Below are positions 29,709-61,087 of a stretch of DNA of 64,000 nt, piece by piece (positions within the stretch are counted from its first letter, which is position 1; each line of letters starts with the position of its first letter). Made by a program: the position numbers and the translations under genes. Under the pieces are notes generated by a model. It did no database searches. It saw only the letters and a program-made list of their open reading frames with translations, and was not told the DNA's origin. Source of the DNA: Vibrio sp. 10N.286.49.B1 (lineage in GTDB: Bacteria > Pseudomonadota > Gammaproteobacteria > Enterobacterales > Vibrionaceae); the NCBI RefSeq assembly GCF_002873335.1, contig NZ_MCUW01000009.1, forward strand, positions 1 through 64,000, in the 5' to 3' direction.

Positions 29709-30054
29709 TTGTATCTTTTTTGAATATCCGTTTATTCAGTAAAAATACTGTTAACAACTTCATGATTTGATTTATGTAGTGTTGGAAAGATAGAAGTTCT
29801 AACGTAGAGGAAGCATTAAAATTGATGAAGTATATGTATCGACCGAAAAAACACTTCAGCACACGCTCCCTCTACATCGAGTTGCGTTCGTACGTGAAGG
29901 TTTAATGATTAAAAACGACTATTGATAACGACCGGACGTAACAACCTCAATATTAAAACAAAACAATAACACTCATAGCAACTGACCACTCAATCACAGT
30001 ATATCGGACCTCCATTCCGTTCACCGTTATAGTTCAGTTCGTTTTACACGCTCG

Positions 30055-45437: not shown

Positions 45438-47037
45438 GGTGAACCTCCGATTGCGTGGCAGTCCCAAGTTCAAGCTGTCGGTGAAATTTATAGGCAAGAA
45501 AAATACCTAAATCACTGTTAACACGTTTCATCCAAATTGCATTCACTTCAGGGTTGTTGAGAATATCTTCTGCATCCAGAGTACTTTCAATCAATAAATC
45601 TTGGTTAATTTCTTGTGATACACCCTCTGAAGTTTCGGGTTGTTCACCAAGCTCATGGCTGCTTTGTTGCGCTCCGCTGTCGGATTGGCTAAGGGTAAAT
45701 TCGTTGATGTCTTTTATAATCTTGTCCAGTAATACTAGATTGGCTTTGGCGATATCACTATTAGGGTAATCGCGCACAATATCGCGGTAGTGATTTCTAG
45801 CCGCGATATACTCGCGTTGATGAGCTAACGATGCCGCTGCACCGAGGTGGCCAGGCAGAGTGTCACTGCGCATATAATATTGTTGTGCTTTCTCATAGTC
45901 ACCTAAATGATAATAAGCGCTCGCTTTCCACTGCGTGTCTTCAAATACTTCAGCCGCAAGTTGATATTCTTCCTGATCAAAATAGCGTTGCCCTTGTTGA
46001 TCTTTAGTGAACCATATATCTGACCAGGACATTATTTTCGCTGCCGCATTCGGCGAATAACTTAGACTACTAGACACCATTATTACTAGGCACCACTGCA
46101 CAAGCCAACCACGTCGAAACCAAAATAGGAGGATCAATAACATCACCCACACAAGCGCATACCCTGAATCATTCCAGGGTTCACTAAAGCCCCCTGACGC
46201 TTCAACATTATTCGCAATGATGCCAAGGACTACCTTTATATCGTCATGATTCATCGTCAGCGAAACGTAATCGCCCCCACTGCCATCAGCAAGCGCCTGG
46301 AGAGTCTCCACTTCTAAAGGATAATCTGCTAACAAATTATCGGCCCCCATCCCCCACACCACAAGGTTGTGGCGCGTTGATGAAAAGTACTCAATATACG
46401 TATTTAAAGCGATTTGGTTAATACCATCCCCTACCCAAACCACCGTGCCACTTTTTAGGTCATCGCTGAGTAGCTCGTCCACAAGAGGCAGAGCATACTC
46501 GGCAAACTTACCGTCTCTTGGCATAATTTCCGGTATCACCGCTGCCAACAATGGATTAAAAACATTCGTATCTTGGGTGAGAGGCATCGCCGTATGAGCG
46601 CTCCCAGAAAACACGATCAGCGCCGACTTACCTTTATTTCGCCGTGCCAATAAGTCTTGTATTTTTTGCTTGGCAATAAAAATTCGGCTTGGTGCCACGT
46701 CTTTTTGTTGCATAGTTTTGGATACATCAAGAACAATAATTAACGGTGCTTTATCCTCACCAAATGGTGAGGCCACCCGATACCAACTTGGGCCAGCTGC
46801 AACGACAATCGCTATCCCCCCTATCACGCAAAGCAATTTTATTGGTAAGTGATTCCCCCAAGAATTAAAACCAACGGTCAACGCTTTGAATAAGTGTGGC
46901 GGCAACTGCTTTAGCCAGCGACTCTTTATTTTCTCTTCGCGCCAGCGCCAACACAATAACATCAGAAACGGGAGGTACAGCCCTAGCCATTCTGGGCGTA
47001 GGAAATGAAACTGATGAACAAACATTGAGAATGTCAT
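45421..47037 (-). CDS. VWA-TPR membrane protein (BatB/BatC-like fusion)
   Basis: Protein of 538 residues: N-terminal membrane segments (about 18-30 and 66-82), a von Willebrand A domain (about 97-285), a third membrane segment (about 305-325) and TPR repeats (about 350-440, DQEEYQLAAEVFEDTQ, YYHLGDYEKAQQYY). An acidic tail follows. The metal site reads DVSKT (from D104), where the usual MIDAS is DxSxS. In Bacteroides-type Bat operons VWA (BatB) and TPR (BatC) are separate; here they are one chain. Its ATG overlaps the upstream VWA gene by four bases (ATGA). Confidence 0.83.
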   Translation of the reverse strand: MTFSMFVHQFHFLRPEWLGLYLPFLMLLCWRWREEKIKSRWLKQLPPHLFKALTVGFNSWGNHLPIKLLCVIGGIAIVVAAGPSWYRVASPFGEDKAPLIIVLDVSKTMQQKDVAPSRIFIAKQKIQDLLARRNKGKSALIVFSGSAHTAMPLTQDTNVFNPLLAAVIPEIMPRDGKFAEYALPLVDELLSDDLKSGTVVWVGDGINQIALNTYIEYFSSTRHNLVVWGMGADNLLADYPLEVETLQALADGSGGDYVSLTMNHDDIKVVLGIIANNVEASGGFSEPWNDSGYALVWVMLLILLFWFRRGWLVQWCLVIMVSSSLSYSPNAAAKIMSWSDIWFTKDQQGQRYFDQEEYQLAAEVFEDTQWKASAYYHLGDYEKAQQYYMRSDTLPGHLGAAASLAHQREYIAARNHYRDIVRDYPNSDIAKANLVLLDKIIKDINEFTLSQSDSGAQQSSHELGEQPETSEGVSQEINQDLLIESTLDAEDILNNPEVNAIWMKRVNSDLGIFLAYKFHRQLELGTATQSEVHHELSH

Positions 47038-48050
47038 GTGTTATGTCCTCTCATTATGTTTTTGACTCTCGCTTGGCGGGAAATCCAAACATGGCCACAC
47101 ATAAAAAGAAGGTAATTTAAAAGAGCAATCAATACCGGAAGAAAGTGCAAACTGGATTTAGGCTGATAAGTGAAACTCTCAAACAATGTTGGTTCTAAAA
47201 TCGATATTTGTTCATAGACTTGTTGTAAGTCATCTGGAGACATAGCAAGAAAGGCCTGCCCTCCCGTCAAATCCGCAACCTGTTTAATCACATCCATATT
47301 TAGAGCTTGTTCACCCGCTGTATTTGGACTGCCCATCGCAACCATATGGATCCGAATATTGTGTGCGGCGGCAACCTTTGCGGCATCAACGGGTGGGACT
47401 AAACTGTCGGTGTCATTGCCATCGGTTAACATCACAATGACACGCTGTGTCGAAGACATTTTAGATCCTGACATGTAGGTTTTAATCGCCAATCCAATGG
47501 CGTCGCCAAGTCGAGTGCTTTCTCCAGCCATTGCGACTTCTGCTTGTTGTAGCAGTGACAGCCAAGCACCATGGTCCGCCGTAAAAGGGGCTTGTAAGTA
47601 TGGTGCATCACCGAATAAGATGAGCCCTAACCGATCACCTTCTCTTTGTTGACTGAATGTAGAAAGCACCTGCTTGGCCGCGGCAAGCCTAGAAAGACTT
47701 TGCCCAGTCGCGTCATTAAAATCCATCTCTGACATCGAGCCCGACAAGTCAACAATCACCATTAAATCTCGCCCTGTCAGCTCTCGAGTTTCCGGTTCGC
47801 TTAACCACATGGGCTTTGCTGCGGCAGTCAATAACAAGCACCAGGTCAAGACCAATGAAACACGCTGCCAACGGCTCGACTTTAATTCTACGGCACCTGA
47901 CTGAGCCGTAAGATTAAGCGCCTCTATCAAGGACAAAAAAAACGGCACTCTCAGCGCAAGCTGTTGAGTATAATGCCCTGGAGCCCAACGAAATATCATC
48001 AGGGGTAACGGCAAAAACAAGAAAACCCAACTGTATTGAAATTCAATCAT
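47034..48050 (-). CDS. VWA-domain membrane protein (BatA-like)
   Basis: Protein of 338 residues, started at the ATG at 48050 behind AGGA rather than at an upstream TTG. It has membrane segments at about 8-20, 64-79 and 312-330. A von Willebrand A domain (about 95-285) has an intact metal site DLSGS (101-105) and later TDGNDTDS. It follows the DUF4381 gene by 11 bases. In MoxR systems such VWA proteins are the usual partners or substrates of the ATPase. Confidence 0.85.
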   Translation of the reverse strand: MIEFQYSWVFLFLPLPLMIFRWAPGHYTQQLALRVPFFLSLIEALNLTAQSGAVELKSSRWQRVSLVLTWCLLLTAAAKPMWLSEPETRELTGRDLMVIVDLSGSMSEMDFNDATGQSLSRLAAAKQVLSTFSQQREGDRLGLILFGDAPYLQAPFTADHGAWLSLLQQAEVAMAGESTRLGDAIGLAIKTYMSGSKMSSTQRVIVMLTDGNDTDSLVPPVDAAKVAAAHNIRIHMVAMGSPNTAGEQALNMDVIKQVADLTGGQAFLAMSPDDLQQVYEQISILEPTLFESFTYQPKSSLHFLPVLIALLNYLLFMCGHVWISRQARVKNIMRGHNT

Positions 48051-48061
48051 CAGCACATATC

Positions 48062-48538
48062 CTAGTGGTGAGTTTTCAGCCAAAGATTGACCATTCTTTC
48101 TAGCTTTTCCAATTGCTTGTCCTGCCAGTCCGCCTGATTAATAGGTGTATACAACGACGCCTGCCACTGCTTTGCTAGTTCATTTGAGAAATCAACATTG
48201 CGTGACGTCGATGACAAAAAGTCCAACCAATACTCCCCAGACAGTGACGCTACCTTTGAGTGTTGATATTTAAAACAAGCCGCTTGCTTAAGTAAGCTAT
48301 TCAAGCCGAAGATGAATTTTTTAGGGTCATGCTTAGGGAGTTTGCCAACCGCTTTTATCGCGCGACGGCGATAACCATTGGCACGATAATGCTGCACACA
48401 ACGAAACCCGGCGATAGCAATGCTTAGTACTACAAGTAAGAATAGAATTTTACACCCCACCGTCTCAGGTAAAAAACTCACCTCTTCGGGTAAAGTGGGC
48501 TCCTTCAACCGCTCAAGTAAAATATTATTTCGAGACAC
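48062..48538 (-). CDS. DUF4381-family membrane protein
   Basis: Small membrane protein of 158 residues that starts with GTG behind a GGAGG site, inside the end of the DUF58 gene (14-base overlap). One transmembrane segment (about 29-46) is followed by a cytoplasmic helical domain with SGEYWLDFL. DUF4381 proteins occur between DUF58 and VWA genes of MoxR operons; no biochemical role is known to me. Confidence 0.8.
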   Translation of the reverse strand: MSRNNILLERLKEPTLPEEVSFLPETVGCKILFLLVVLSIAIAGFRCVQHYRANGYRRRAIKAVGKLPKHDPKKFIFGLNSLLKQAACFKYQHSKVASLSGEYWLDFLSSTSRNVDFSNELAKQWQASLYTPINQADWQDKQLEKLERMVNLWLKTHH

Positions 48539-49457
48539 GACGGCCTCCGGATAGCTGAGTCGTCAACTGTTTTAAGTGTGAACCCGACGTGTCTAAAACA
48601 ATACTTTGCGATTGTAAGCGCTGCTTAAGTTTAGCCTGAGATGATACTAGCCTGCGATTAAGGCCCTCCAATTGCGCATTGAAGTTTTCATCGACAGAGA
48701 CTTGCTGATACCCGTCACTCAAATAGATCTGGTCAGTAAAATGGACAGGTTGTTCGAATGAATCTTGGATAGAGATAGCCGACACATCGTTATGACGTTG
48801 TAATAACGATAAGAAACGAAGCGTTGTGTCATCCAAATCAGAAAAATCACTAATAAGAATGAGCGACGCCCCTTTTAGCCCCTGTTTATGCAGTGTATTC
48901 AGGGCGTCATTAAACGTACTGGCGGAATCCAATGTTGCCCCCTTGCCTTCTTGATTTAGCAATGACTGATTACAGTCAACAAGGGTTTTAAATATACGAG
49001 ACAAATGCGCGACACTATTTCTAGGCTTGAAACAAGCGCAACTCGAATCATTCAATATTACCGCTCCAATCCGGTCGCTATTTCGTATCGTTTGCCATGA
49101 TAGGCAAGAAAAAACTTCCGCTGCGACGACGGATTTCATTGTATCTACCGTTGAAAAAAACATCGTCTTTCGCTGATCAACACATATCACGACAGGGCGT
49201 TCCTTCTCTTCGCTGAATAAACGAACATAAGGTACGCCGGTTCTTTGCGTAACCCTCCAGTCTAAACTGCGTATATCGTCCCCCAACTGATATTGGCGAA
49301 ACTCAGAAAAGTCCAGCCCACGCCCTTTCTTACTTGAACGATATTTTCCGATTAGTTGATTGATTTTTCTTGAACGTGATGATGTCAGCTCAGCACGATG
49401 CCCATGCCTCATTGCCATTAACCGTTCGAACTGAACCGCAACTCTAGAATCAAACAT
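48525..49457 (-). CDS. DUF58-family protein
   Basis: Cytoplasmic protein of 310 residues with the DUF58 signature (RQYQLGDDIRSLDWRVTQRT, about 61-80). A degenerate VWA-like fold follows, with VVICVDQRKTM and LILISDFSDLDD. No transmembrane segment is apparent. DUF58 genes almost always follow moxR, here by 10 bases, and are thought to take part in the same assembly pathway. Confidence 0.88.
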   Translation of the reverse strand: MFDSRVAVQFERLMAMRHGHRAELTSSRSRKINQLIGKYRSSKKGRGLDFSEFRQYQLGDDIRSLDWRVTQRTGVPYVRLFSEEKERPVVICVDQRKTMFFSTVDTMKSVVAAEVFSCLSWQTIRNSDRIGAVILNDSSCACFKPRNSVAHLSRIFKTLVDCNQSLLNQEGKGATLDSASTFNDALNTLHKQGLKGASLILISDFSDLDDTTLRFLSLLQRHNDVSAISIQDSFEQPVHFTDQIYLSDGYQQVSVDENFNAQLEGLNRRLVSSQAKLKQRLQSQSIVLDTSGSHLKQLTTQLSGGRRVSK

Positions 49458-49467
49458 ACTTCCGCCC

Positions 49468-50454
49468 CTATACTAAAGCGACATGACGTAGGATTTCGTC
49501 AACGACTAAACTGGGCGTAACCCCGTCTGACATTGCTTCAAAGGTCAACGTAATTCGGTGCCCTAGTACCGCTTGAGCAATCGAGCGGACATCATCTGGT
49601 GTGACGTAATCACGCCCTTCTACGTGCGCATGGGCTCGACTACAACGATCCAGCGCGATAGAGGCTCGTGGGCTTGCACCTATTTCGATCCACTCGGCCA
49701 ATTTTGACTCCGAATAGCGCTTGGGCTCACGTGTAGCAATAATTAAGTCAACAATGTAGCGATCAATCGACTCCGAGACATAAGCATGCTTCACCATTTC
49801 ACGTTCCTGAATAATGAAATCTTGGTTTTCAAACAATACCCGCTTTGAATCAAAGACCGTGTCATCAACAAGTCCCATATCTTCGTTTCTTATTAAGCGT
49901 ACAATGGCTAACTCGGCTTCCGCTGATGGGTAATCGACATCAATCTTCATAACAAAACGATCCATCTGAGCTTCCGGCAGTGGATAGGTGCCTTCTTGTT
50001 CAACTGGATTTTGCGTGGCGAGCACCATAAAGGGACTCGGCAACGGCCTTGTTTCACCCGCTACGGTTACGGTTCCCTCTGCCATCCCTTCCAGTAGCGC
50101 AGCCTGAACTTTAGCTGGAGCTCGGTTAATTTCATCAGCGAGTACGATAGGGCTAAAGATAGGTCCGGGCTGGAACGTCAAACACCCTTGCTCATGATGG
50201 TAGAGCTGCGCTCCCGTGATATCAGATGGCAACAAGTCAGGTGTGAATTGTATTCGGCTAAACCCCAAATTCAGCGCTTCAGACAACGCTTTTACTGCCC
50301 GTGTTTTAGCGGTACCAGGAAGCCCTTCAAGTAGAATATGACCGCCTGTAAGTAGCGCAATAATCATCGATTTTGTGACATGACTTTGACCAACAATGGC
50401 GGCGTTAACTTCATTAATCAAAGAGACCAATGGAGAGTGGACAGCGTTATTCAT
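49468..50454 (-). CDS. MoxR-family AAA+ ATPase
   Basis: Chaperone-like AAA+ protein of 328 residues. Walker A is GLPGTAKT (44-51), Walker B VLADEIN (104-110), sensor 1 lies at VLATQNPVEQEG, and arginine fingers lie near QMDRFVMK. MoxR ATPases help fold or insert metal-containing or multi-subunit enzymes, often in the periplasm, with VWA partners. This is the catalytic centre of the operon. An AAGG ribosome site precedes the ATG. Confidence 0.93.
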   Translation of the reverse strand: MNNAVHSPLVSLINEVNAAIVGQSHVTKSMIIALLTGGHILLEGLPGTAKTRAVKALSEALNLGFSRIQFTPDLLPSDITGAQLYHHEQGCLTFQPGPIFSPIVLADEINRAPAKVQAALLEGMAEGTVTVAGETRPLPSPFMVLATQNPVEQEGTYPLPEAQMDRFVMKIDVDYPSAEAELAIVRLIRNEDMGLVDDTVFDSKRVLFENQDFIIQEREMVKHAYVSESIDRYIVDLIIATREPKRYSESKLAEWIEIGASPRASIALDRCSRAHAHVEGRDYVTPDDVRSIAQAVLGHRITLTFEAMSDGVTPSLVVDEILRHVALV

Positions 50455-50483
50455 GAGTAAACCTTGTTATAAAATTGGCGAGA

Positions 50484-51458
50484 CTAACGATATTTATCGA
50501 TAAGCGCTGTCACTGCCTCTTCTGGTGCAAATTGGCGCAATTTTTCCAAGCACGATATCGCACTCATCTGACTGGATAGTCGAGCCTCACATTGAGAAAA
50601 CAGATACTGAGGATTGCCAGTGGATGCATAAGCTTGGGTAAACAAAGTCCATGCTTCTTGAGGTTCCTGATCTAATATCATCAAACCCAACATATAACTG
50701 TATGTCGCACTGTTGGGCTCAAGTCGATACGCTTGCTGCATGTGCTGAAATGATAGCGATACCTGTTCATTGCGCCAGTAGGAGAGCGATAAGCTGTAGT
50801 GCAGCATGGCATTGTCATTGTCGGTGACGAGCGCTTGATTGAGCGCCTGAATCGCACGCACCTCTTGATGTTGGTCACTATAAAGCTCAGCAAGAGCGAT
50901 AGTGACATCAAGGTCATTTGGCTTGGTTTGCCACAAATTTAGCACGTGCTCTGCTTCAGTATATCGTTGACACCACCTAAGTAATTGAGCCTTTTCCAAC
51001 GCGCCTTCCTGTGTGGCAGGTAATGCTGCAATATAATGCTGTAACTTAGCGTCTAATTTATTTTGATAGCGAACTGGCAACGACGGCCATAATGGAACAA
51101 GTGCACGAATCGCCGCTTGTTGAATACGAGGTTGAGAATCTTCGAGTAACGGCTCAACCACATCCCACTTCGCTCGTCCTTGCCAACGTTTAGCGGCCTG
51201 AATACTCGACATTCGCATTTCTATACTCGGAGATCGTGATGCTCTGCCAATTGCGATAAGCGCGTTGGGACCTGAAAAATACCCCAATTGCTGCGTCGCG
51301 GCGGTACGTTGCTCTAGCGGCAAGTCCTGGTTTTGCGACATTTCGGCGAGTTGGGCTTCAGATGCCATCGTAGTCAATAGCTCTGCCAAACTGAAACTGC
51401 TATGAAAGACAAAGCAACTGAGCATTAACCACCTCAACACTCGTATTTGAGCCCTCAT
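50484..51458 (-). CDS. Exported HEAT/TPR-repeat protein of unknown function
   Basis: Not a named family to me. The 324 residues have a signal peptide (RWLMLSCFVFHSSFSLAE), HEAT-like helices (about 60-125, RSPSIEMRMSSIQAAKRW, EDSQPRIQQAAIRALVP) and TPR-like repeats (about 180-270, NDNAMLHYSLSLSYWRNEQ). Such repeats usually hold proteins together. It overlaps the next upstream gene by one base and lies between the maturase and moxR, so it may be a periplasmic scaffold for the MoxR-VWA machine. Confidence 0.75.
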   Translation of the reverse strand: MRAQIRVLRWLMLSCFVFHSSFSLAELLTTMASEAQLAEMSQNQDLPLEQRTAATQQLGYFSGPNALIAIGRASRSPSIEMRMSSIQAAKRWQGRAKWDVVEPLLEDSQPRIQQAAIRALVPLWPSLPVRYQNKLDAKLQHYIAALPATQEGALEKAQLLRWCQRYTEAEHVLNLWQTKPNDLDVTIALAELYSDQHQEVRAIQALNQALVTDNDNAMLHYSLSLSYWRNEQVSLSFQHMQQAYRLEPNSATYSYMLGLMILDQEPQEAWTLFTQAYASTGNPQYLFSQCEARLSSQMSAISCLEKLRQFAPEEAVTALIDKYR

Positions 51459-51985
51459 TACGCCTCCTCATCCCGGAGGTTTTGGTGCATGGCTTCTGCT
51501 TCAATCATCAACGAATGAAGAAAATAAACATCATCCGTTTTAGGGAAATCATGCATTACTAGCCATTCATTCACTGCATTCAAGGTATCATCAAACAATA
51601 TATCTGCATCGGGGCCCGCCTCTAAGTAAGCTAGTAACTGCAAAGAAGATACAAGTTCTGGATAGGCGACTTCTGGCATCAGTAATGAGGTCATATGGCG
51701 ATGATATACTTGCTTCAATACATCGTGATTCGCCTTAGCCGATTTATACTTCCTTTGTTTATTCTCGTAGCTATCAGTGCAGTCAGGATGTGTAGGCTTT
51801 TGCTGACAAAAATTAAACTGCGTGGCAAATGACGTATAACGAACACTTTTGGTTTCAAAGGCCAAGTCAATCATGCTGTTGACCTGCTTTTCGGGAAAAA
51901 GAACATCCACATCGGCAGCAGCCAAAGGTAAGGCATAAAATAACAAAAAAAACAGTGTGAACATTGTTGTCTTTATCGAGCTCAT
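51458..51985 (-). CDS. Small exported protein of unknown function
   Basis: No family recognised. The 175 residues start with a clear signal peptide (TMFTLFFLLFYALPLAAA). The mature part is helical and acidic at the end, with two cysteines (FNFCQQKPTHPDCTD) that could form a disulfide in the periplasm. A GAGGG ribosome site is present. It is locked into the operon between the maturase gene (12 bases) and the HEAT/TPR gene (one-base overlap). Confidence 0.72.
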   Translation of the reverse strand: MSSIKTTMFTLFFLLFYALPLAAADVDVLFPEKQVNSMIDLAFETKSVRYTSFATQFNFCQQKPTHPDCTDSYENKQRKYKSAKANHDVLKQVYHRHMTSLLMPEVAYPELVSSLQLLAYLEAGPDADILFDDTLNAVNEWLVMHDFPKTDDVYFLHSLMIEAEAMHQNLRDEEA

Positions 51986-51997
51986 ATTGTCACCCTC

Positions 51998-53302
51998 TTA
52001 CTTAAGTTTGATGTTCATCGCCGCAGGGTGGAACCCTTTATGGACTGGATAACCCATAGTGGCAACGACCATTGATATATATGGATCGATATGTTTGAAA
52101 AACTGTTTCCAACCCGCACACAGATAGTTCAGACCTACTTCGCCATCGAGTGTTTTTATGAAACGATTTTTCGGACATTCCCCGTAGCACGCAAATTGAT
52201 AGTTGCATGTTCTGCATTGCTTGGGTAAAGCGCCTTCCTTGGCTTTCCCAAACTCTTCTTGCCCTTTAGAAAACTGTAAACTCTCTAAAGCAGTGTCATG
52301 AATGTTACCCAATTTGTACTCTGGATAGACGTAGTGATCGCAAGCAAAGACATCACCATTGTGTTCTATTGCCAACCCCTTGCCACACATTGGTGCTAAC
52401 GTACAAAGTGGATTAATCCTGCCCATCCAAGTTTCAACACATGCTTCAAAATAAGGGACATTCACCTTGCCAATATCATTAGATAGCCACTCATCAAAAA
52501 TGGTGCATAGAAATTGCCCCCATTGGCTTGGTGATACACACCATGCCTCCACGATCGAGTTAGGATGACTCGGTTCTGTTTCTGGCATTCCTTGGAATAA
52601 CACATCTTGAGCCGACCAATGCTGTGGCGCGGTATCTCTAAATGATTTCGGCTCAACAATAGGGATAAACTGCAATTGCGGTGAACGGATTTCATCACGT
52701 AGGAACCGGTACACCTCAAGAGGATTCGCACCAACTAGGTTGTTCACGCAAGTCAATGTCGCGAAATTTATCTGGTATTTATGAAGAATTTCGACGCCTT
52801 TCATTGTTTTCTTAAATGTGCCACGACCTGATCGATTCGTTCGGTACGTATTGTGGATCATTTCAGGACCATCAATACTCAATCCAACCATGAAATCATT
52901 CTTACTTAAAAACTTACCCCATTCATCATTAAGTAAGGTGCCGTTAGTTTGCAGATTATTTTCAATGCTTACCCCTTTAGGGCAGTATTTTTTTTGTAAT
53001 CGAACGACATCACGGAAAAAGTTAACGCCTAATAGCGTCGGCTCACCGCCTTGCCAATGGAACACTATTTCCGGATAGTTTTGCTGCTCTATATACGACT
53101 GAATGTATGTTTCCAGCATGTCTTCTGTCATTTGAGAGCCACAACCTTTATCGTGTCCCAACAAGGTCTCTTTACTTAAGTAATAACAGTAAGTGCAATC
53201 AATATTACAGGCTGAACCAATCGGCTTAGTCATGATATTCATTCGTTGTACTGGAGATTTTTTAGGTAAATCAATATCAAGCTGTGGCGTGTAATTGGAC
53301 AT
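51998..53302 (-). CDS. Anaerobic sulfatase-maturating radical SAM enzyme, AslB-like
   Basis: Cytoplasmic radical SAM/SPASM protein of 434 residues. It oxidises the active-site Cys (or Ser) of a sulfatase to formylglycine before export. The radical SAM cluster is C32-x3-C36-x2-C39 (ACNIDCTYCYY). A conserved LSIDGPEMIHNTYR region follows. C-terminal auxiliary-cluster cysteines lie in CTLAPMCGKGLAIEHNGD and CRTCNYQFACYGECPKNRF. The next gene upstream is a sulfatase with the matching target motif. A CAGTA-N4-TACTG site lies about 120 bases upstream of the ATG. Confidence 0.93.
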   Translation of the reverse strand: MSNYTPQLDIDLPKKSPVQRMNIMTKPIGSACNIDCTYCYYLSKETLLGHDKGCGSQMTEDMLETYIQSYIEQQNYPEIVFHWQGGEPTLLGVNFFRDVVRLQKKYCPKGVSIENNLQTNGTLLNDEWGKFLSKNDFMVGLSIDGPEMIHNTYRTNRSGRGTFKKTMKGVEILHKYQINFATLTCVNNLVGANPLEVYRFLRDEIRSPQLQFIPIVEPKSFRDTAPQHWSAQDVLFQGMPETEPSHPNSIVEAWCVSPSQWGQFLCTIFDEWLSNDIGKVNVPYFEACVETWMGRINPLCTLAPMCGKGLAIEHNGDVFACDHYVYPEYKLGNIHDTALESLQFSKGQEEFGKAKEGALPKQCRTCNYQFACYGECPKNRFIKTLDGEVGLNYLCAGWKQFFKHIDPYISMVVATMGYPVHKGFHPAAMNIKLK

Positions 53303-53421: not shown

Positions 53422-53435
53422 CAGTATTTATACTG
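53422..53435. promoter_or_regulatory. CAGTA-N4-TACTG operator upstream of the maturase operon
   Basis: Perfect inverted repeat CAGTA-TTTA-TACTG within the longer match ACCAGTA...TACTGCTT that it shares with the site before the sulfatase gene. It lies 120-133 bases upstream of the maturase ATG, beyond the sulfatase terminator. Confidence 0.7.
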
Positions 53436-53505
53436 CTTTAGCGTTAAGAATAACGTTGCTCATTCCATCTTAGTGTTTACATTTCCCATCGCACAAATAG
53501 CACAA

Positions 53506-53527
53506 AGCCCAGCATTTATGCTGGGCT
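53506..53527 (-). terminator. Terminator after the sulfatase gene
   Basis: A 9-10 bp perfect stem (AGCCCAGCAT / ATGCTGGGCT) followed on the minus strand by TTTGTGC, 26 bases past the sulfatase stop. The maturase operon therefore seems to have its own promoter. Confidence 0.8.
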
Positions 53528-53552
53528 AAATCTTAGTGCTTTTTCATGACTT

Positions 53553-55130
53553 TTATTGGTATTGAGCACGTTGCCAGATATTCATTTTCTCTACGATTTG
53601 ATCGATAGAAAAGGAACCTGGAACCTGACGAGGAGGAAACTCTTGGAATGTTTGCAAGAACTGAGCGGTTGAGGCTGCGCCAAGGTACATGTACGGTAAA
53701 TGTTCAATATACCATTTTGTATAACGGCCTTCATGGTCGGCGTTTTCATACGGGTCTTGACGTAAGTTGTACATCTTGGGCGCACGAAGCTCTTCAAATG
53801 AGCAATTCCATGTTTCTAAGCCATGACAGTTATTTACGCTGAACATAATCTTATAATCACCCACACGAACCGCTGACACATCACCGGCATCCGTGGCATA
53901 GATATAAGACTGACGTGGCCAAGATGCGAGATTGTAGTGGGTTGTCGCTTTACCCGTTTTAAGCGCTGGTAACAGGTTATAGCCATCTAGATGAACTTTG
54001 TACTGTTTGCCGTTTAATTTCTTACCCTTTTTCAGGTCCGCCACAATGGTGGTATCGCCAGTTGCAGCAAGGAATGTTGGTGCCCAGTCGTTATGTGCAG
54101 CCATTTCATTAGCAATTGACCCTGCTGGGATTTTACCCGGCCAGCGCATCATCGCAGGCACACGATGTCCACCTTCCCAAGAAGAGTTTTTCTCACCGCG
54201 GAAGCGAACGGTACCGCCGTCAGGCCAAGATAACTTTTCCGCGCCATTATCGGTCGAATAACTGACGATTGTATTATCAGCGATCTTCAGCTCATCGAGT
54301 TTATCTAGAAGTTGACCGACATGATTATCATGTTCAACCAAACCATCACCGTAGATCCCACCACGCTTAGATAAACCTTTAGACTCCTCCTTTAGGTGAG
54401 TCCAAACATGCATACGAGTAGCATTAAACCAGATAAAAAATGGCTTCTCTTCCTTGTGCGCTCGATCAATAAAATCTAACGCGGCAGTTAAGAATTCTTC
54501 ATCAACGGTTTCCATGCGCTTTTTCGTCAGTGAACCCGTATCTTCAATTTTGCCGTCTGCGAAAGAGTGGATAACCCCACGAGGGCCAAATTTTTTCTGG
54601 AACCAAGGCATGGATGGGTAATCTGCGTGCTCAGGTTCTTCTTCTGCGTTTAAGTGATAAAGATTTCCAAAAAACTCATCAAAGCCATGCTCTGTAGGTA
54701 GTTGCTCATCAAGGTCACCTAAATGATTTTTACCAAATTGCCCGGTCATATAACCTTTGTCTTTTAGCATAACAGCAATCGTTGGATCTTCGGCTTTCAT
54801 ACCTTGTTTAGCACCAGGCATGCCTACTTTTGTTAACCCTGTACGAATAGGGTGTTGCCCTGTGATAAATGCCGCTCGTCCTGCTGTACAAGAATTTTCA
54901 CCATAAAAATCCGTGAATAAAACACCTTCATTAGCAATTCGGTCAATGTTTGGTGTCCAGTGCCCTGCTTGTCCTTTAGTGTAAGCACTTAAGTTATCCA
55001 TTCCGATGTCATCTCCCCAAATTGCAAGAATATTCGGACGAGAGGTATCGGTAGTCGCATAACTGGCCATTGCGGTCGTCGCTAAAGCGGCACCTACAAC
55101 CAATTGTAAAAAGGTTTTTTTCTTGAACAT
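53553..55130 (-). CDS. Periplasmic sulfatase, arylsulfatase family (AslA-like)
   Basis: Hydrolyses sulfate esters after export. The 525 residues start with a Sec signal peptide (LQLVVGAALATTAMASYA). Metal ligands are D40/D41 in WGDDIGMDN and the later STDNGAEK. The formylglycine site is C81 in SCTAGRAAF (C-x-A-x-R), which fits modification by the radical SAM maturase encoded next door. The substrate is not readable. The neighbouring FadL-family channel suggests a hydrophobic (aryl or alkyl) sulfate. A CAGTA-N4-TACTG site lies 74 bases upstream, and the LuxR-type gene is divergent. Confidence 0.92.
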   Translation of the reverse strand: MFKKKTFLQLVVGAALATTAMASYATTDTSRPNILAIWGDDIGMDNLSAYTKGQAGHWTPNIDRIANEGVLFTDFYGENSCTAGRAAFITGQHPIRTGLTKVGMPGAKQGMKAEDPTIAVMLKDKGYMTGQFGKNHLGDLDEQLPTEHGFDEFFGNLYHLNAEEEPEHADYPSMPWFQKKFGPRGVIHSFADGKIEDTGSLTKKRMETVDEEFLTAALDFIDRAHKEEKPFFIWFNATRMHVWTHLKEESKGLSKRGGIYGDGLVEHDNHVGQLLDKLDELKIADNTIVSYSTDNGAEKLSWPDGGTVRFRGEKNSSWEGGHRVPAMMRWPGKIPAGSIANEMAAHNDWAPTFLAATGDTTIVADLKKGKKLNGKQYKVHLDGYNLLPALKTGKATTHYNLASWPRQSYIYATDAGDVSAVRVGDYKIMFSVNNCHGLETWNCSFEELRAPKMYNLRQDPYENADHEGRYTKWYIEHLPYMYLGAASTAQFLQTFQEFPPRQVPGSFSIDQIVEKMNIWQRAQYQ

Positions 55131-55432
55131 GGGCTCAGACCTATCGGTTATTAATAGTAAAATTGTCGTGAGCTATTATTGGGAGTTTGGTTTTTCAGGT
55201 AACCAGTAGAATTACTGCTTAAATAAATCACCAGGTAAACTTTAGTCAATAGTGACGATAGCCTCATAAAACATTATTACGTATCAAGACAGCCCTCTCA
55301 TCAAGTAGTTAGTATAGATAAAGTTGCCCCGACATTATCGTCATAACGGTTATTCATCTATACTTGGTCATGATATAAACTAGCCAAAATATAATTACTT
55401 ATGCTCACATCAAAGAAAAAAGGTTACGCTCG
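55131..55432. other. Divergent regulatory region between sulfatase and LuxR-type gene
   Basis: A 302-base gap. It contains the CAGTA-N4-TACTG site (55204-55217), close enough to the sulfatase start to overlap its promoter. No gene is present. Confidence 0.65.
55204..55217. promoter_or_regulatory. CAGTA-N4-TACTG operator upstream of the sulfatase gene
   Basis: Inverted repeat CAGTA-GAAT-TACTG, flanked by the same AAC on the left and CTT on the right as the maturase site. It is 74-87 bases upstream of the sulfatase ATG. Confidence 0.7.
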
Positions 55433-56221
55433 ATGATAGACACTAAGCCTGATAATTTTGAATCTCTTCTCATGGCACAATCCAATGCTTTAACATCCTG
55501 TCAGCCTAAGAATTTTGATGAAACCTTTATTATTTTGGCACAACAAGCATTGGATTGGTTTAAATTGGATCGATTAACCTTGTTCCCAAATTCGATGATT
55601 TTACTCAATGATGGGAAAACTATTTCAGTATCAAGAGCAACAATCCCAGACCTAAACAAGCAGCGCTTTTTGAAAGGCAATTACAAAGACTATTTAAAAA
55701 TATTAAGAGTTAAATTATCTTGGCAGGTATTTGATAGCGATGCCCTCAAGCATCATAAACTCGACCCAATGAAAGAATTATATCAAGAAGGCGTACGCTG
55801 GCATGGGGTCATTCGTTTAGAACTCTTTGGGCAAACTTGGGGCGCGCTCGCCTTCTCTCGATTTAGCTTAGACGAAACCGAACTCACTGAGCAAGACATG
55901 AAGCGAATTAAGCTCTTATGTGACATGTGGCTTTGCTTTTGGCAACACTCGACAATGACTCGCAATTTAAGCCTAGATGATCAAGTCAACATCGACGAAA
56001 GTGAAAAGTTACTGCTGCTTAGCAAAAAACAATGTTCTGTTTTAACACTCTTAGCTCAAGGTTACACCGCTAAACAATGTGCTGAAAAGCTGTTTTTGAG
56101 CCCTCGAACAATTGAATCCCATAAATATCGAATGCTCGATTTATTGGAACTAGAAAACCACACCGAGCTCGTTCAGTTTTCACTGCGAAATGGCTTGGGC
56201 ATTGAATCGAATGACAGCTAA
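55433..56221 (+). CDS. LuxR-family regulator with GAF-like sensor domain
   Basis: Regulator of 262 residues. The C-terminal LuxR helix-turn-helix covers about 193-255 (SVLTLLAQGYTAKQCAEKLF, LSPRTIESHKYRML). The N-terminal 180 residues look like a GAF-type sensor (FDETFIILAQQALDWFKLDR, WGALAFSRFSLDETELTEQD). It lacks a receiver domain, so a small ligand is more likely than phosphorylation. It lies between the sulfatase operon and the YiaW-HlyD-FadL unit and is the obvious candidate to bind the shared palindrome. Confidence 0.87.
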   Translation: MIDTKPDNFESLLMAQSNALTSCQPKNFDETFIILAQQALDWFKLDRLTLFPNSMILLNDGKTISVSRATIPDLNKQRFLKGNYKDYLKILRVKLSWQVFDSDALKHHKLDPMKELYQEGVRWHGVIRLELFGQTWGALAFSRFSLDETELTEQDMKRIKLLCDMWLCFWQHSTMTRNLSLDDQVNIDESEKLLLLSKKQCSVLTLLAQGYTAKQCAEKLFLSPRTIESHKYRMLDLLELENHTELVQFSLRNGLGIESNDS

Positions 56222-56300
56222 TATTATCTAGTAGCTAACCTATTTTCATGATTTGTACACATAATCAGTAGCAATAACTCATTCAGACTACGACTCGATT

Positions 56301-56337
56301 TTTATACCGAATCAGTACTTTCCTTATTCGGTATAAA
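56301..56337 (+). terminator. Hairpin after the LuxR-type gene
   Basis: A perfect 12-bp stem (TTTATACCGAAT / ATTCGGTATAAA) with a 13-base loop, about 80 bases past the stop. No T run follows beyond the stem, so it is a candidate rather than a certain terminator. Confidence 0.55.
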
Positions 56338-56401
56338 AACACACCGCCCTCTTTTCATAAATTAACCTGACTCAATGTTTTGGCCTATTCATATTCCATA
56401 T

Positions 56402-56415
56402 CCGTAATTTTACTG
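56402..56415. promoter_or_regulatory. Variant operator upstream of the YiaW-HlyD-FadL unit
   Basis: CCGTA-ATTT-TACTG, one base from the CAGTA-N4-TACTG palindrome and followed by the same CTT. It lies 95-108 bases upstream of the YiaW-like ATG. Confidence 0.55.
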
Positions 56416-56509
56416 CTTCATCTTCCCTATATCCTCCTTACCATCCTCCCCATGCCATGACGCATTTATGGCGTACCTCTTTTTCGTTCACTCACTTTTA
56501 GGAACACTT

Positions 56510-56842
56510 ATGAGCTTGGTAAGTATGCCTTTCGTTGCAACTGGTTTTGACACTGGCTTGCACATCGTTGCCGGTGTCGTCTTAATAGGCACTATCGTCG
56601 GGGCTCTCTATGCATTTTGGAAGTTCCACGAATTACCCATTCACCATGCAGACAAAATGAAACATGGCCAAATGGCTTTGGTCACAACCCTCACTTGGAT
56701 TGGTTTCATCTGGCACTGGGTTTGGGTGCTAGCCGTAATCATTGCATTTGTGGATTCAGAGCAGACCATTCGTCGTACCCGAAAAATTTGGAATGACACC
56801 ACTCCCAGCGCAGTAATTAAAGAAGGCGAACAATCATGTTAG
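56510..56842 (+). CDS. YiaW-like inner membrane protein (DUF3302)
   Basis: Small membrane protein of 110 residues, started at the ATG at 56510 (MSLVSMPFVATGFDTG), which has AGGA at the right distance; an earlier ATG at 56468 lacks a ribosome site. It has two or three transmembrane segments (LHIVAGVVLIGTIVGALYAF, TWIGFIWHWVWVLAVIIAF). DUF3302 proteins (E. coli YiaW, 107 residues) are paired with an HlyD-like protein (YiaV), as here with a seven-base overlap. Function unknown; probably the membrane partner of the adaptor. Confidence 0.83.
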   Translation: MSLVSMPFVATGFDTGLHIVAGVVLIGTIVGALYAFWKFHELPIHHADKMKHGQMALVTTLTWIGFIWHWVWVLAVIIAFVDSEQTIRRTRKIWNDTTPSAVIKEGEQSC

Positions 56843-58059
56843 AAGGACTAGCGGTATGGGCGCTATTTATTTACCTACTAAGGCTGGTGGGGATTCCTTG
56901 GACAAAACCATTTAAACTCTTTGCCTACGGCGGAGGAAGCGCGTGGTTACTATTTGTTTGGGTGGGACTCATTACGTGGGCACCAATGGACTTATCTGGT
57001 GGCTCGGTTGTTCAATCACCACACATCCAATTGCGACCGGGCTCAACACGAATTACCGGCTCTATTGATAAGCTTCACATTTCACCAAACCAAGAGTTAA
57101 AACAAGGTCAACTTGTTTACGAAATCAATAATGAACCTTATAAAATAGCGGTTGGGAAATCACAAGCTTTGCTAGCAGTGGCTGAGATGTCCTACCGTTC
57201 CGCAGTACAAGATGCCAATATCGCCGATACCAATTACCAAGTTTCTCTGGAAGATATTGATATAATTGCGAATCAAATATCAGCGGCTCGACAAGATCTT
57301 GAACTAAAAGAAAGAACATTGCAGCGCTTTGTTAAACAGAATACTAAAGTAAAAAACACCGTCGCTGAAAGTAATCTTGATCAACAAAAAACCGTCATTG
57401 CCATGACAAAAAATCAAATTGAAATTCTTAAATCTCAACATGATAAAGCACTGATCAACGAACAGAAAAGCAAAAATCTACTCGCAAAATCCCAGCTCAC
57501 CATAAAAAGTAAGCAGGCAGATATCGCCAGTAAACAGTCTCAATTAAATCAAGCCATGTGGGACTTATCTCAGACAAAGGTTTATGCACCTGTTGATGGA
57601 TACGTCACCAATTTCATTGCTCGAGAGGGGCAGTTTATTGGCGCAACGCCAAGACTAAAAATGTACAGCAATGAAAAATTCGTGTTGATGCGAATTAATC
57701 ATCAGGCATTTAGGAATATTCGTGTAGGTCAAGAAGCTGAATTTGCCTCTGCGATTTATCCTGGCAAGGTTTTCTCTGCTGTGGTTGAGGGAATTGTTGA
57801 AGCCACGGGGGAATCCCAAGGTTCACTCGTTGCCCGTGAAACCAATGTTCGCGCTACTACTGGCAAAAATGTTCAGAATAAACATCACTTTGTTCGCTTG
57901 AGTATTCACGAGCCAGCAGGCTATGACATTCCAGTTGGCGCTGTTGGTCTAGCCTGGGTAAATGCAGAAAAACCTATCCCTTTTCTGAATTTCCTCAACG
58001 TTATTCGCGGCATCATTATTCGAATGAAAGCTCAGATCTACTACATCTACAGCATGTAA
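56836..58059 (+). CDS. HlyD-family membrane fusion protein (YiaV-like)
   Basis: Periplasmic adaptor of 407 residues. Two N-terminal membrane segments (about 4-20 and 30-48) precede a biotinyl-lipoyl region. A long coiled coil (about 100-215, ELKERTLQRFVKQNTK) and the returning barrel (WDLSQTKVYAPVDGYV, about 240-255) follow. No ABC, MFS or RND pump gene is nearby; the only inner-membrane partner is the YiaW-like protein. It may link inner-membrane and outer-membrane proteins of this regulon rather than serve classical efflux. Confidence 0.87.
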   Translation: MLEGLAVWALFIYLLRLVGIPWTKPFKLFAYGGGSAWLLFVWVGLITWAPMDLSGGSVVQSPHIQLRPGSTRITGSIDKLHISPNQELKQGQLVYEINNEPYKIAVGKSQALLAVAEMSYRSAVQDANIADTNYQVSLEDIDIIANQISAARQDLELKERTLQRFVKQNTKVKNTVAESNLDQQKTVIAMTKNQIEILKSQHDKALINEQKSKNLLAKSQLTIKSKQADIASKQSQLNQAMWDLSQTKVYAPVDGYVTNFIAREGQFIGATPRLKMYSNEKFVLMRINHQAFRNIRVGQEAEFASAIYPGKVFSAVVEGIVEATGESQGSLVARETNVRATTGKNVQNKHHFVRLSIHEPAGYDIPVGAVGLAWVNAEKPIPFLNFLNVIRGIIIRMKAQIYYIYSM

Positions 58060-58205
58060 TTGACGCTACTCCAGTAACGAAAGGGGTCTAATGCGACCTC
58101 TTTCTTTCACTTTATTTTCTTGGTTCCGTGGATATTGAACCTAGACGCTTTGCGGCCTCACTACAACTAACACGAACCTACGCGCTAAAAATAAGTCTAT
58201 TTATT

Positions 58206-59378
58206 ATGAAAAAAACGCTCATCGCTTCACTCATCATTACTAGCCAAGTCCACGCAAGCGGATTACTACTTCAAGAGGCCGTCACTGCTAATGCCGGAAC
58301 CGCTGGCGCTGGAGATGGTGTCTATACCCAAACAGCGAGTGCTAGCTGGACTAATCCAGCAACAATGACACACATGGGCGAGCAACTCACAACAGTAAAC
58401 GCTCTCATATTGGATCTCAAACTCGACTACGATGACCACAGTACGGTGCCTCAAAACGGTCAAGCAAAAACAACCATGCCATCTATCGGTATATTCCATG
58501 TTCGTCAACTCACTGACGAGATTCACCTAGGCATGAACTTTGGCGTAGTGGGGGGATCTTCTATTGAATATGGTACTGATTGGGCCGGGGCTCCATACCT
58601 TAATAAAGCTTTTATGACTGGGATTCAAATTAACCCTAATCTTAGCTATAAAATTAATGACCATGTTTCATTAGGACTCGGCGCACAAATTAACTATGGT
58701 TTACTTGAGGTATCAACTTCATCCGTACAAAGTAACCTCGATACAGATTGGGCTTATGGCTTTAACTTGGGCGCAATGTACCACCAAGACAATTGGGCTT
58801 TAGGTGTCAGCTATCGTTCAAAAATCAAGCATGAGTTTTCTGTAGAAGCAAGTCTGATGACCGCACCTTATAGCCTCCCTCTGAACACTGAACTTTTGAT
58901 CCCAACCATTGTTGATATAAGTGGTGCTTATGATCTTAATTCACAGCTAACGTTATTGAGCTCTGTCCAACTTCACCAATGGAGTGACTTTGATAAAACA
59001 CCCATTTACACCGATATCGGTACAACAAACATCGAACGTAACTGGGATGACGTATGGAAGTTTGCCATAGGAGCGGACTATCAACTAACTAGTACATGGG
59101 CACTCAAGGTTGGTTTTTCTTACGAGACTTCTCCTCAGGATAACCCTTCTTTGCAATGGGTCGATTTGCCTGTTGGTGAACAGTATCGATACTCGGTTGG
59201 GGCAAGTACAGATTGGAACTCGACCAAGGTTGATATATTCTACGAATTTGCCGACTTAGGTACCATGCCAATTACTCGACAAGTGGGTCCAAATCCTGGC
59301 CCAATTGACGGGCTTCCCGACCTAAATGGCGAGTTCTCAGGCCGTATTCATTTCGTAGGTATGAACTTTAGCTTTTAA
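58206..59378 (+). CDS. FadL/OmpP1-family outer membrane channel
   Basis: Beta-barrel of 390 residues, started at the ATG at 58206 (MKKTLIASLIITSQVHASG); a GTG 78 bases upstream would place a long non-signal extension before the signal peptide. The N-terminal hatch is typical (SGLLLQEAVTANAGTAGAGD, then ASASWTNPATMT), and the C-terminus ends in Phe (FVGMNFSF), as for outer membrane barrels. The family moves hydrophobic molecules across the outer membrane. It follows the HlyD gene by 146 bases. Confidence 0.9.
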   Translation: MKKTLIASLIITSQVHASGLLLQEAVTANAGTAGAGDGVYTQTASASWTNPATMTHMGEQLTTVNALILDLKLDYDDHSTVPQNGQAKTTMPSIGIFHVRQLTDEIHLGMNFGVVGGSSIEYGTDWAGAPYLNKAFMTGIQINPNLSYKINDHVSLGLGAQINYGLLEVSTSSVQSNLDTDWAYGFNLGAMYHQDNWALGVSYRSKIKHEFSVEASLMTAPYSLPLNTELLIPTIVDISGAYDLNSQLTLLSSVQLHQWSDFDKTPIYTDIGTTNIERNWDDVWKFAIGADYQLTSTWALKVGFSYETSPQDNPSLQWVDLPVGEQYRYSVGASTDWNSTKVDIFYEFADLGTMPITRQVGPNPGPIDGLPDLNGEFSGRIHFVGMNFSF

Positions 59379-59390
59379 AGCCTCTTATTT

Positions 59391-59427
59391 ATTAGGCAGG
59401 ACAATGACCTAAATTGTCCTGCCTAAT
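59391..59427 (+). terminator. Terminator after the FadL-family gene
   Basis: A perfect 15-bp stem (ATTAGGCAGGACAAT and its complement) with a 7-base loop, 12 bases past the stop. It lacks a T run on the plus strand but is very stable. Confidence 0.75.
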
Positions 59428-59814
59428 CACCACATAAATCATCACTCGTCTCATCACTCGTCTCATCACCAAGAATAACATTCACTATAATCTTGCTCGC
59501 TTTATCTGCACGTCTTCCACTTTCATGCCCTGAAAAACACGACAAAAACCAATATTGTTAGTCGCATAATCTTGAGGCCTGCTACCTTAAGGTTAACTCA
59601 CCGCTTGCACCCACTTACTCGTAATCATATGTTCAATAATAGTAGCGTTGAACCTACCTTATATTCATAACAACCAAAAACATACTCCACACCGCTCAAG
59701 ATAATCGATGAAATATACAGGCTAAAAATAAAATCCTGTATTAGAAACTGAGTACTGTTATTCAATAATATCAGCTTCCAAAGGAACCTTTTTAGCTGTA
59801 CATTATTTAAAGAC

Positions 59815-59844
59815 AAAAAAAAGCCAGTAGCGTTAACTACTGGC
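59815..59844 (-). terminator. Terminator after the porin gene
   Basis: Stem GCCAGTAG / CTACTGGC with a 6-base loop, followed on the minus strand by a run of eight T residues, about 46 bases past the porin stop. Confidence 0.85.
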
Positions 59845-59890
59845 AAAGGGTCGACAAAAATGTTTTAGCAGTGGGGTTGTTTCAACTAAA

Positions 59891-60940
59891 TTATAAGTTT
59901 ACATTCGCGCGTAAAAACAACTTGTCATCATCTTCAGATGCTACTTTATAATCAGTCACTAATTCTAGATGCTCATTTAAACGGTAAGACGCACCAATTG
60001 TGTACCAGTCGTCTGAATCAAAAGTGTTGCCTTTGTTCGACGTTCTGTCCCAATTGTATTCCTCTAGATTATAGGTTGCGGAAATTGAAAGGTTCATTGT
60101 CGCTTGATAAGCTGCGCCCAATGCATAACCTTTTGTTTCTTCGTTGTTTACATTCATTGTTTCAACATCGCCAAAATCATATTTAGCGGCGAAGTTGAAT
60201 TTATCTAGTACTGCAACAGCGCCGATTGTGTAGACTTTTTCTGAGCGGTTTTGGGCATCGGTTGAATACTCACCCTTCGCGATGTCTACATACGTACCAC
60301 CAATGACAACAGCCCCAAGCGTTGCTGAGCCGCCAACAGCCCATGCATCATTGGTGTGTTCCCATGCGGCACCAACATCGAAGTTTTCACCAAAATAATG
60401 ATGGTTAAGTTGCTCATCGGTACAAGCGGCTTCATCCGCTTCTGCGCCTAGGCCATGCTCTTTCGATATATCACCAAAGCCTAAGTACACATCAGCAATA
60501 CCGCATTGCTTACCAAACGTAGTCTTACCTGCGACCGTATTCACACCAAATGTAAAACGGTCCACGTAATTAATTGGGTCTATACGTGTATCATAACCAT
60601 TCCATTCATAACGAGCTTCACCACCAATCAAGAGTGAAAAACTATCTGTCACAGCATAGTCTAAATCCGCACCCACTTTAAACATATACGTATGAGCAAA
60701 GTTACTATCATTCTGGTCATCAAATAATACGTTACCGCCTAGCTCTGCACCAGAATATGCGACACCAGTCAGCTTATCATTTTCAATAAAATCATATAAA
60801 TTGTTAGGCTTATCTGCCGTCGAGGACAATTCTGAAATATTTTCTGCAGACGACTGTTCTGATGACGTAATGACAGCATTTGATTCAGCTAAAGCTGGAG
60901 CCGCTAATATGATGGCAATGGCGTATGCAAGTTTTTTCAT
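59891..60940 (-). CDS. Outer membrane porin (Gram-negative trimeric type)
   Basis: Porin of 349 residues, started at the ATG at 60940 (MKKLAYAIAIILAAPALA) with GGGA upstream. A TTG four codons earlier is less likely. The signal peptide is followed by an unusual Ser/Glu-rich stretch (about 19-50) before the barrel. Barrel strands alternate (VADSFSLLIGGEARYEW-type), with AAKYDFGDVE and a C-terminal LRANVNL. A cysteine pair may close a loop (FGKQCGIADV and DEAACTDEQ). Two palindromic sites of the sulfatase regulon lie upstream, so this may be the uptake pore for its substrate. Confidence 0.88.
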   Translation of the reverse strand: MKKLAYAIAIILAAPALAESNAVITSSEQSSAENISELSSTADKPNNLYDFIENDKLTGVAYSGAELGGNVLFDDQNDSNFAHTYMFKVGADLDYAVTDSFSLLIGGEARYEWNGYDTRIDPINYVDRFTFGVNTVAGKTTFGKQCGIADVYLGFGDISKEHGLGAEADEAACTDEQLNHHYFGENFDVGAAWEHTNDAWAVGGSATLGAVVIGGTYVDIAKGEYSTDAQNRSEKVYTIGAVAVLDKFNFAAKYDFGDVETMNVNNEETKGYALGAAYQATMNLSISATYNLEEYNWDRTSNKGNTFDSDDWYTIGASYRLNEHLELVTDYKVASEDDDKLFLRANVNL

Positions 60941-61024
60941 TTTATATCCCAATATTATCGAATTTTGATTAGTACGTTTTGTACTTCCGACATGGATATT
61001 GAGATAGTTTATACTTTCATAATA

Positions 61025-61038
61025 CGGTAATTATACTG
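61025..61038. promoter_or_regulatory. Variant operator proximal to the porin gene
   Basis: CGGTA-ATTA-TACTG followed by CTC; one base from the CAGTA-N4-TACTG palindrome. It lies 85-98 bases upstream of the porin ATG, with its centre 49 bases from the second site. Confidence 0.6.
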
Positions 61039-61073
61039 CTCCACATTAGGATGTGAAGTCGTGATTGGCAATG

Positions 61074-61087
61074 CAGTATATATACTG
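61074..61087. promoter_or_regulatory. CAGTA-N4-TACTG operator distal to the porin gene
   Basis: Core CAGTA-TATA-TACTG inside an 18-base perfect palindrome (61072-61089). It is the most symmetrical copy of the motif in the window, 134-147 bases upstream of the porin ATG. Confidence 0.72.

Follow-up and report, generated by a model that had tools for sequence, protein, structure and literature searches.

In the first 64,000 nucleotides of contig NZ_MCUW01000009.1 of Vibrio sp. 10N.286.49.B1 (assembly GCF_002873335.1; hereafter, the window), a gene for a LuxR-type regulator (positions 55433-56221) lies within a cluster of sulfatase-related genes whose upstream regions share the palindrome CAGTA-N4-TACTG. 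Our analysis indicates, with high confidence, that this palindrome is the operator of the regulator, which would act as an activator from a class II position. The palindromes stand at a fixed distance from the promoters and, across species, travel with one regulator gene; therefore, binding of the regulator at these sites very probably turns on the cluster. This interpretation draws on the sites, their conservation, their linkage to the regulator gene and their fixed spacing, and, for the protein, on the fold of a predicted model; from the sequences, we infer that the regulator binds the palindrome directly, and it would be dimeric, activating and controlled by a ligand. The type of mechanism is familiar. 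A very limited literature search surfaced no published account of this particular system, and it may have been published before.

The palindrome in the window

The earlier note on this DNA had listed five copies of the palindrome, and all of them are present, three perfect (53422, 55204 and 61074) and two with one mismatch (56402 and 61025); the copy at 55204 sits within the divergent sulfatase/luxR intergenic region. The note had noticed none upstream of the other genes of the window, which proved wrong, because a fourth perfect copy (29737), spanned only by an open reading frame (ORF) of 64 amino acids, precedes a gene for a Cache-GGDEF diguanylate cyclase. With up to one mismatch allowed, the window contains 10 matches, as compared with a mean of 1.49 and a maximum of 5 in 100 shuffled sequences.

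A site matrix was trained on 47 distinct exact intergenic sites, which came from the related loci described below and included the window's own four perfect sites. It yields a flanked consensus near TAWK-CAGTA-WWWW-TACTG-MWTA, in which the A at -3 (85%), the A/T at -2 and the A/T in the centre are information not imposed by the search pattern. The five sites of the earlier note score 16.6-27.3 and the sixth scores 24.9; the mismatched sites at 56402 (17.1) and 61025 (16.6) were outside the training set, and the perfect ones were inside it. The other four one-mismatch matches in the window (41621, 48908, 59181 and 62402) score 1.7 at most. The dinucleotide CT reported to follow the palindrome does so at four of the five sites as read on the plus strand; it belongs, however, to the symmetric flank and is not a separate element.

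Conservation in related loci

A search with the family alignment of the regulator retrieved 78 loci from named genomes. The analysis used 57 of these (L010-L066, some being partial matches, e.g. L066), while 21 loci that match little beyond the helix-turn-helix (HTH) region (L067-L087) were set apart. In the 57 loci, CAGTA-N4-TACTG is found 46 times between genes and three times inside them; no other five-letter palindrome with a spacer of 0-12 bp reaches as high an intergenic count. The earlier note had raised the possibility that the motif is equally common in random intergenic DNA, which is not the case: 59 letter-permuted palindromes gave between genes a mean of 0.29 and a maximum of 3, and the control stretches described below contained none at matrix score 15. 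As a separate observation, the variant CAGTA-N5-TACTG occurs 10 times between genes in these loci, above every spacer other than 4.

Orthologous genes were then searched for a site with at most one mismatch within 450 bp upstream; genes were dropped if the alignment spanned less than 85% of the query or if less than 200 bp of sequence lay upstream. Absence from orthologous promoters, also considered in the earlier note, was not observed, in that a site precedes all 19 close sulfatase genes (at least 70% identity; 16 sites exact), 12 of 14 maturase genes, all six porin genes and the five close orthologues of the DUF3302 gene. None was found for six distant sulfatases of the same loci (55-60% identity), nor for one DUF3302 gene at 60% identity. 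FadL genes have a site in 9 of 14 cases, and the five without (L019, L024, L026, L042 and L046) stand behind DUF3302-HlyD genes. The permuted palindromes gave 89 matches in 6254 upstream tests. The relation between palindrome and regulator extends to Aliivibrio, Moritella and Thalassotalea.

Promoter geometry

Towards the gene, exactly 23 bp separate the end of the palindrome from a -10-like hexamer, which is AATAAT for sulfatase genes, GATAAT or AATAAT for maturase genes, TAAAAT or TACACT for FadL genes and TAACAT or TACCAT for DUF3302 genes. The spacing was first seen in the sulfatase promoters and then tested on the remaining ones, taking one site per promoter, excluding luxR promoters and merging segments at least 75% identical (from 52 to 36). 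At least four of six matches to TATAAT were found at an offset of 23 bp in 31 of the 36 nonredundant start-proximal sites, the next offset reaching 11, and in 20 of 22 promoters if the sulfatases are left out; the mean match at this offset was 4.36, as compared with no more than 2.75 in 5000 random shifts. The five promoters failing the rule are those of the sulfatases of L042, L061 and L044 and of two porins.

The -35 region beside the palindrome is poor, with a mean of 2.4 matches of 6. If the hexamer is taken as -12 to -7, the centre of the palindrome falls at -42.5. This places it next to the -35 region, where lux boxes and the sites of class II activators also lie. Relative to the predicted transcript starts, the sites thus have the centre near -41.5/-42.5 and the fixed -10 phase of class II activator sites, except at the porin and luxR promoters.

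Linkage to the regulator gene

Among 247 screened genomes of the family Vibrionaceae, 45 hold the regulator family at an E-value of 1e-25. Sites were counted with the extended pattern WNCAGTANWWNTACTGNW, which had been chosen after the sites had been seen, in 205 of these genomes (42 of 102 same-family genomes were left out). Within the genus, genomes with the regulator family contain 2.05 extended sites on average (n = 40), against 0.47 in those without it (n = 105); the corresponding values for the reversed control are 0.45 and 0.79. The 45 genomes hold 92 extended sites. Of these, 53, spread over 27 genomes, are no more than 30 kb away from a family gene, as against an expectation of about 1.8%, and 36 are no more than 2 kb away. 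The earlier note had proposed to test whether the sites travel with the LuxR-type gene, and these counts support it. Conversely, no site reaches matrix score 15 in the 191 kb of 18 stretches that hold a more distant sulfatase and lack a family gene, one of them from the present genome and 17 from genomes not among the 45; the best score is 9.8, inside a gene (L110). In L067-L087, one such site was found in 322 kb.

A sulfatase of at least 76% identity is present in 19 genomes, and 18 of them hold the regulator family. The exception (G084) has no family match at the cut-off; it contains a diverged relative of the regulator, split into two pieces that overlap. Its locus (L097:7960-8993; sulfatase identity 77%) has no CAGTA operator at matrix score 9, and carries at 8917 a different palindrome, the inverted repeat CGTAGT-TCT-ACTACG; a joint change of operator and regulator is no more than a lead. 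In a tree of 54 regulator sequences, from which pieces aligned over fewer than 225 residues were left out, sulfatase linkage is clustered (9 changes versus 16.9 when shuffled), and does not form one clade; branches are long. In several species (L043, L044, L045 and L059), the regulator gene appears in two pieces, and the palindromes are kept in L043, L044 and L059.

Weighing of the alternatives

It should be noted that a number of observations count against the assignment of the palindrome to this regulator as an activator site. The loci are related, and the named loci and the genome set overlap, so that the counts are not independent; moreover, both the matrix and the extended pattern were chosen after sites of the regulator family had been seen. 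The two maturase genes without a site are both from Moritella (L030 and L061), and the luxR genes have an upstream site in just 28 of 52 rows. Across the whole genome (5.15 Mb in 89 contigs), the 14-base core is not enriched, with nine exact matches versus 10 for the reversed control and, with one mismatch, 169 versus 276; because of this lack of enrichment, the genome-wide counts were not taken as evidence. They are what speaks for chance, that is, for an AT-rich 14-mer that could be found in any window. Chance appears nonetheless to be practically negligible as an explanation, the conserved orthologous promoters being decisive in this respect, along with the locus counts, the control stretches, the proximity to family genes and the 23-bp spacing. 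What marks the operator is its position, its flanks and its promoter phase, and not the genome-wide count. Four of the nine exact matches are inside ORFs of 163-376 amino acids and five are outside genes, namely the four of the window and one at C20:48535. At a distance of about 0.6 kb from the latter, C20:49105-49878 encodes the genome's one further full-length regulator of this family (in a third match, only the HTH region is aligned); this gene sits in a second sulfatase-MoxR neighbourhood (L098; sulfatase 54% and MoxR 60% identity).

A further set of observations concerns sites away from the regulator. Nine of the 45 family-holding genomes have no exact extended match, in 18 no family gene has such a match within 30 kb, and 39 of the 92 extended sites are not near any family gene. 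Fourteen of these 39 were fetched: 11 are outside genes, two are inside genes and one scores below 15. Four of the 11 intergenic ones have a four-of-six hexamer at 23 bp towards a gene, and several precede, in different genomes, a small winged-helix-like gene. Part of the far sites may belong to another regulator, or may be distant targets. These sites, together with the GntR genes that adjoin some regulator paralogues, favour the view of a real operator that a different transcription factor binds, the LuxR-type gene being no more than a frequent neighbour. We regard this as improbable, because sites and regulator co-occur by genome, by locus and at the second family gene of the present genome, and the geometry suits a LuxR-type class II activator. 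In addition, when a 20-kb locus of Thalassotalea (L060) was screened with 12 proteins of the window, only the sulfatase and the regulator were found beside the site. Another regulator not linked to the locus, which the earlier note had envisaged, is likewise unlikely in view of the co-occurrence per genome and the proximity to family genes.

As for the mode of action, the regulator could instead be a repressor that occupies the site by the -35 region until an inducer releases it, since a position beside the core promoter allows repression too. The proximal porin sites depart from the 23-bp rule, and that of the window covers the TATAAT of a promoter-like TTCACA-16-TATAAT (11/12 matches; 61057 down to 61030, minus strand), so that repression could occur there. 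This hit is weak evidence, because in the promoter scan promoter-like sites were fewer than in shuffled sequences (8 versus 20.3). The promoter of luxR itself has no fixed spacing, and autoregulation of luxR by the same geometry was accordingly not supported. When luxR and distal sites are included, 24 of 57 non-sulfatase segments reach at least 4/6 at 23 bp; the offset of 23 still has the highest mean (2.98, against 2.0 over offsets). A repressor would need no exact phase, and the exact -10 phase combined with a poor -35 region at 31 of 36 promoters is activator-like; repression is therefore unlikely, if slightly less so than binding by another factor.

Activation by the LuxR-type regulator would then proceed as follows. 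A dimer with a GAF-like sensor domain would bind the palindrome, with the centre of the site about 42.5 bp upstream of the transcript start, and, placed next to a poor -35 region, would recruit RNA polymerase. The targets activated in this way would be the sulfatase gene, the maturase-MoxR operon, the DUF3302-HlyD-FadL unit and probably the Cache-GGDEF gene, while the tandem porin sites would work in some other geometry.

Genes of the cluster and the candidate regulon

The features of the window are collected in Table 1. The maturase-MoxR genes are presumably co-transcribed, because the gaps between them are below 30 bp and several genes overlap. The substrate of the sulfatase could not be assigned, the matches in the PDB being only to general arylsulfatase types, and we make no commitment on it.

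Table 1. Putative operators and genes of the window.
Feature	Position	Strand	Remarks
Sixth putative operator, perfect, before Cache-GGDEF gene	29737..29750	-	Matrix 24.9; TACAAT exactly 23 bp downstream
Putative operator of maturase-MoxR operon, perfect	53422..53435	-	Matrix 22.5; GATAAT exactly 23 bp downstream
Putative operator of sulfatase gene, perfect	55204..55217	-	Matrix 27.3; AATAAT exactly 23 bp downstream
Putative operator of DUF3302-HlyD-FadL unit, one mismatch	56402..56415	+	Matrix 17.1; TACCAT (4/6) exactly 23 bp downstream
Porin-proximal site, one mismatch	61025..61038	-	Matrix 16.6; weak hexamer (3/6) at +23
Porin-distal site, perfect	61074..61087	-	Matrix 20.9; CCTAAT (4/6) at +23
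LuxR-type regulator, 262 amino acids	55433..56221	+	GAF-like sensor fold (predicted) and GerE/LuxR HTH (residues 196-249)
Sulfatase (PF00884)	53553..55130	-	Pfam match; arylsulfatase-type matches in PDB
Anaerobic sulfatase maturase, first gene of putative operon	51998..53302	-	TIGR03942, 477.8 bits (cut-off 349.45)
Remaining genes of putative operon	44184..51985	-	175-amino-acid protein without Pfam match, TPR-like, MoxR ATPase, DUF58, DUF4381, two VWA, BatD-like
DUF3302 (YiaW-like, weak match), HlyD-type adaptor, FadL-type outer-membrane transporter	56468..59378	+	
Porin (Porin_4)	59891..60952	-	
Cache-GGDEF diguanylate cyclase	28035..29708	-	

The Cache-GGDEF gene is a probable member of the regulon, judging from its site. 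The TACAAT 23 bp past this site would place the transcript start (near 29701) below the first start codon, so that translation probably begins lower; a possible start codon is the TTG at 29666-29664, preceded by AGGA. Three relatives of this protein, at 35-39% identity, were found among the best nine candidates per genome in 147 other genomes of the genus (E-value 1e-90), and none of the three carries a site; with no close orthologue at hand, this site could not be footprinted. In the related loci, sites also precede genes for a DUF3187 protein, a porin, a Gly-rich protein of 145-156 amino acids, a GntR regulator and a short-chain dehydrogenase behind luxR. The regulon as first outlined was thus too narrow, since it lacked the GGDEF gene here and the DUF3187, Gly-rich and short-chain dehydrogenase genes in relatives. 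Its theme may be the envelope and the uptake of a sulfated, perhaps hydrophobic, compound.

The short-chain dehydrogenase genes directly follow luxR in L017 (a partial match), L026, L027 and L028; they have a CAGTA-type site (10812-10857), and their -10 hexamers match loosely. It is possible that the dehydrogenase is the next enzyme after the sulfatase. A GntR-family gene preceded by the palindrome is present in L098:8759-10879, L134:1966-3296 and L059:10931-11716, and in L098 and L134 the gene for the Gly-rich protein is divergent from it; L098 has a second, weaker site at 9578, with CATAAT 23 bp on. In L121, L122, L126, L128 and L133 and in L043:18358-18660, an intergenic palindrome precedes a small gene assigned by eye to a winged-helix-like family, in regulator-holding genomes and away from the regulator gene.

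The regulator protein

The GerE HTH (PF00196) of the regulator is matched at 54.0 bits (cut-off 23.5), and 41 of 41 family members match it. Foldseek comparison of the predicted structure gave SdiA, QscR and RhlR as top rows (E-values from 4e-9, TM about 0.5); by Z, GAF domains rank equally or better. The N-terminal half is GAF-like in the model. The autoinducer-binding domain, which we take to be PF03472, is not among the eight Pfam families listed for the window regulator at E-values up to 5, nor among the matches listed for 41 family members (25 of 29 families). An identity as an acyl-homoserine lactone (AHL)-type regulator was accordingly not retained. Pfam also gave no match to a receiver domain in the window regulator; many members of the family are named by NCBI after the NarL/FixJ group.

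Comparison with known systems

More tentatively, and with the balance of our judgement somewhat against it, the family might represent a new branch of LuxR-type activators. In these, the GAF-like domain would respond to a signal other than an AHL, perhaps a desulfation product, and the family would have spread with the CAGTA operator through marine gammaproteobacteria, coupling sulfatase, maturase, MoxR/Bat complex, outer-membrane transporters and synthesis of cyclic di-GMP. For a sulfatase cluster that recurs among marine bacteria, the analysis provides a precise putative operator, one candidate for the regulator and an architecture of the promoters. Whether the MoxR-Bat genes, the YiaW-HlyD pair, the FadL transporter and the GGDEF protein belong to one response thereby becomes testable, and a reporter based on the operator could be used to screen for the ligand of the regulator, and hence perhaps for the substrate of the sulfatase.

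The system resembles the quorum-sensing activators LuxR, TraR, SdiA and QscR in combining a sensor domain with a GerE HTH. By Foldseek, the predicted fold comes nearest to SdiA, QscR and RhlR, and by Z GAF domains are as near or nearer. As in the tra box, the two arms of the inverted repeat are separated by 4 bp, and its centre falls near -42.5, like that of the lux boxes. Unlike in that group, however, the half-site is CAGTA instead of CTGTA or GTGCA, the window protein has no autoinducer-binding Pfam match among the families listed, and the targets are sulfatase and envelope genes. The HTH is of the superfamily of the NarL/FixJ response regulators, from which the protein differs in having no receiver domain match and a GAF-like N-terminal half. 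Other sulfatase-MoxR clusters of Vibrionaceae (sulfatases at 53-63% identity) share the sulfatase, often MoxR and sometimes the maturase with the present one, whereas in the 18 stretches of this kind there is neither a regulator-family gene nor an operator at matrix score 15.

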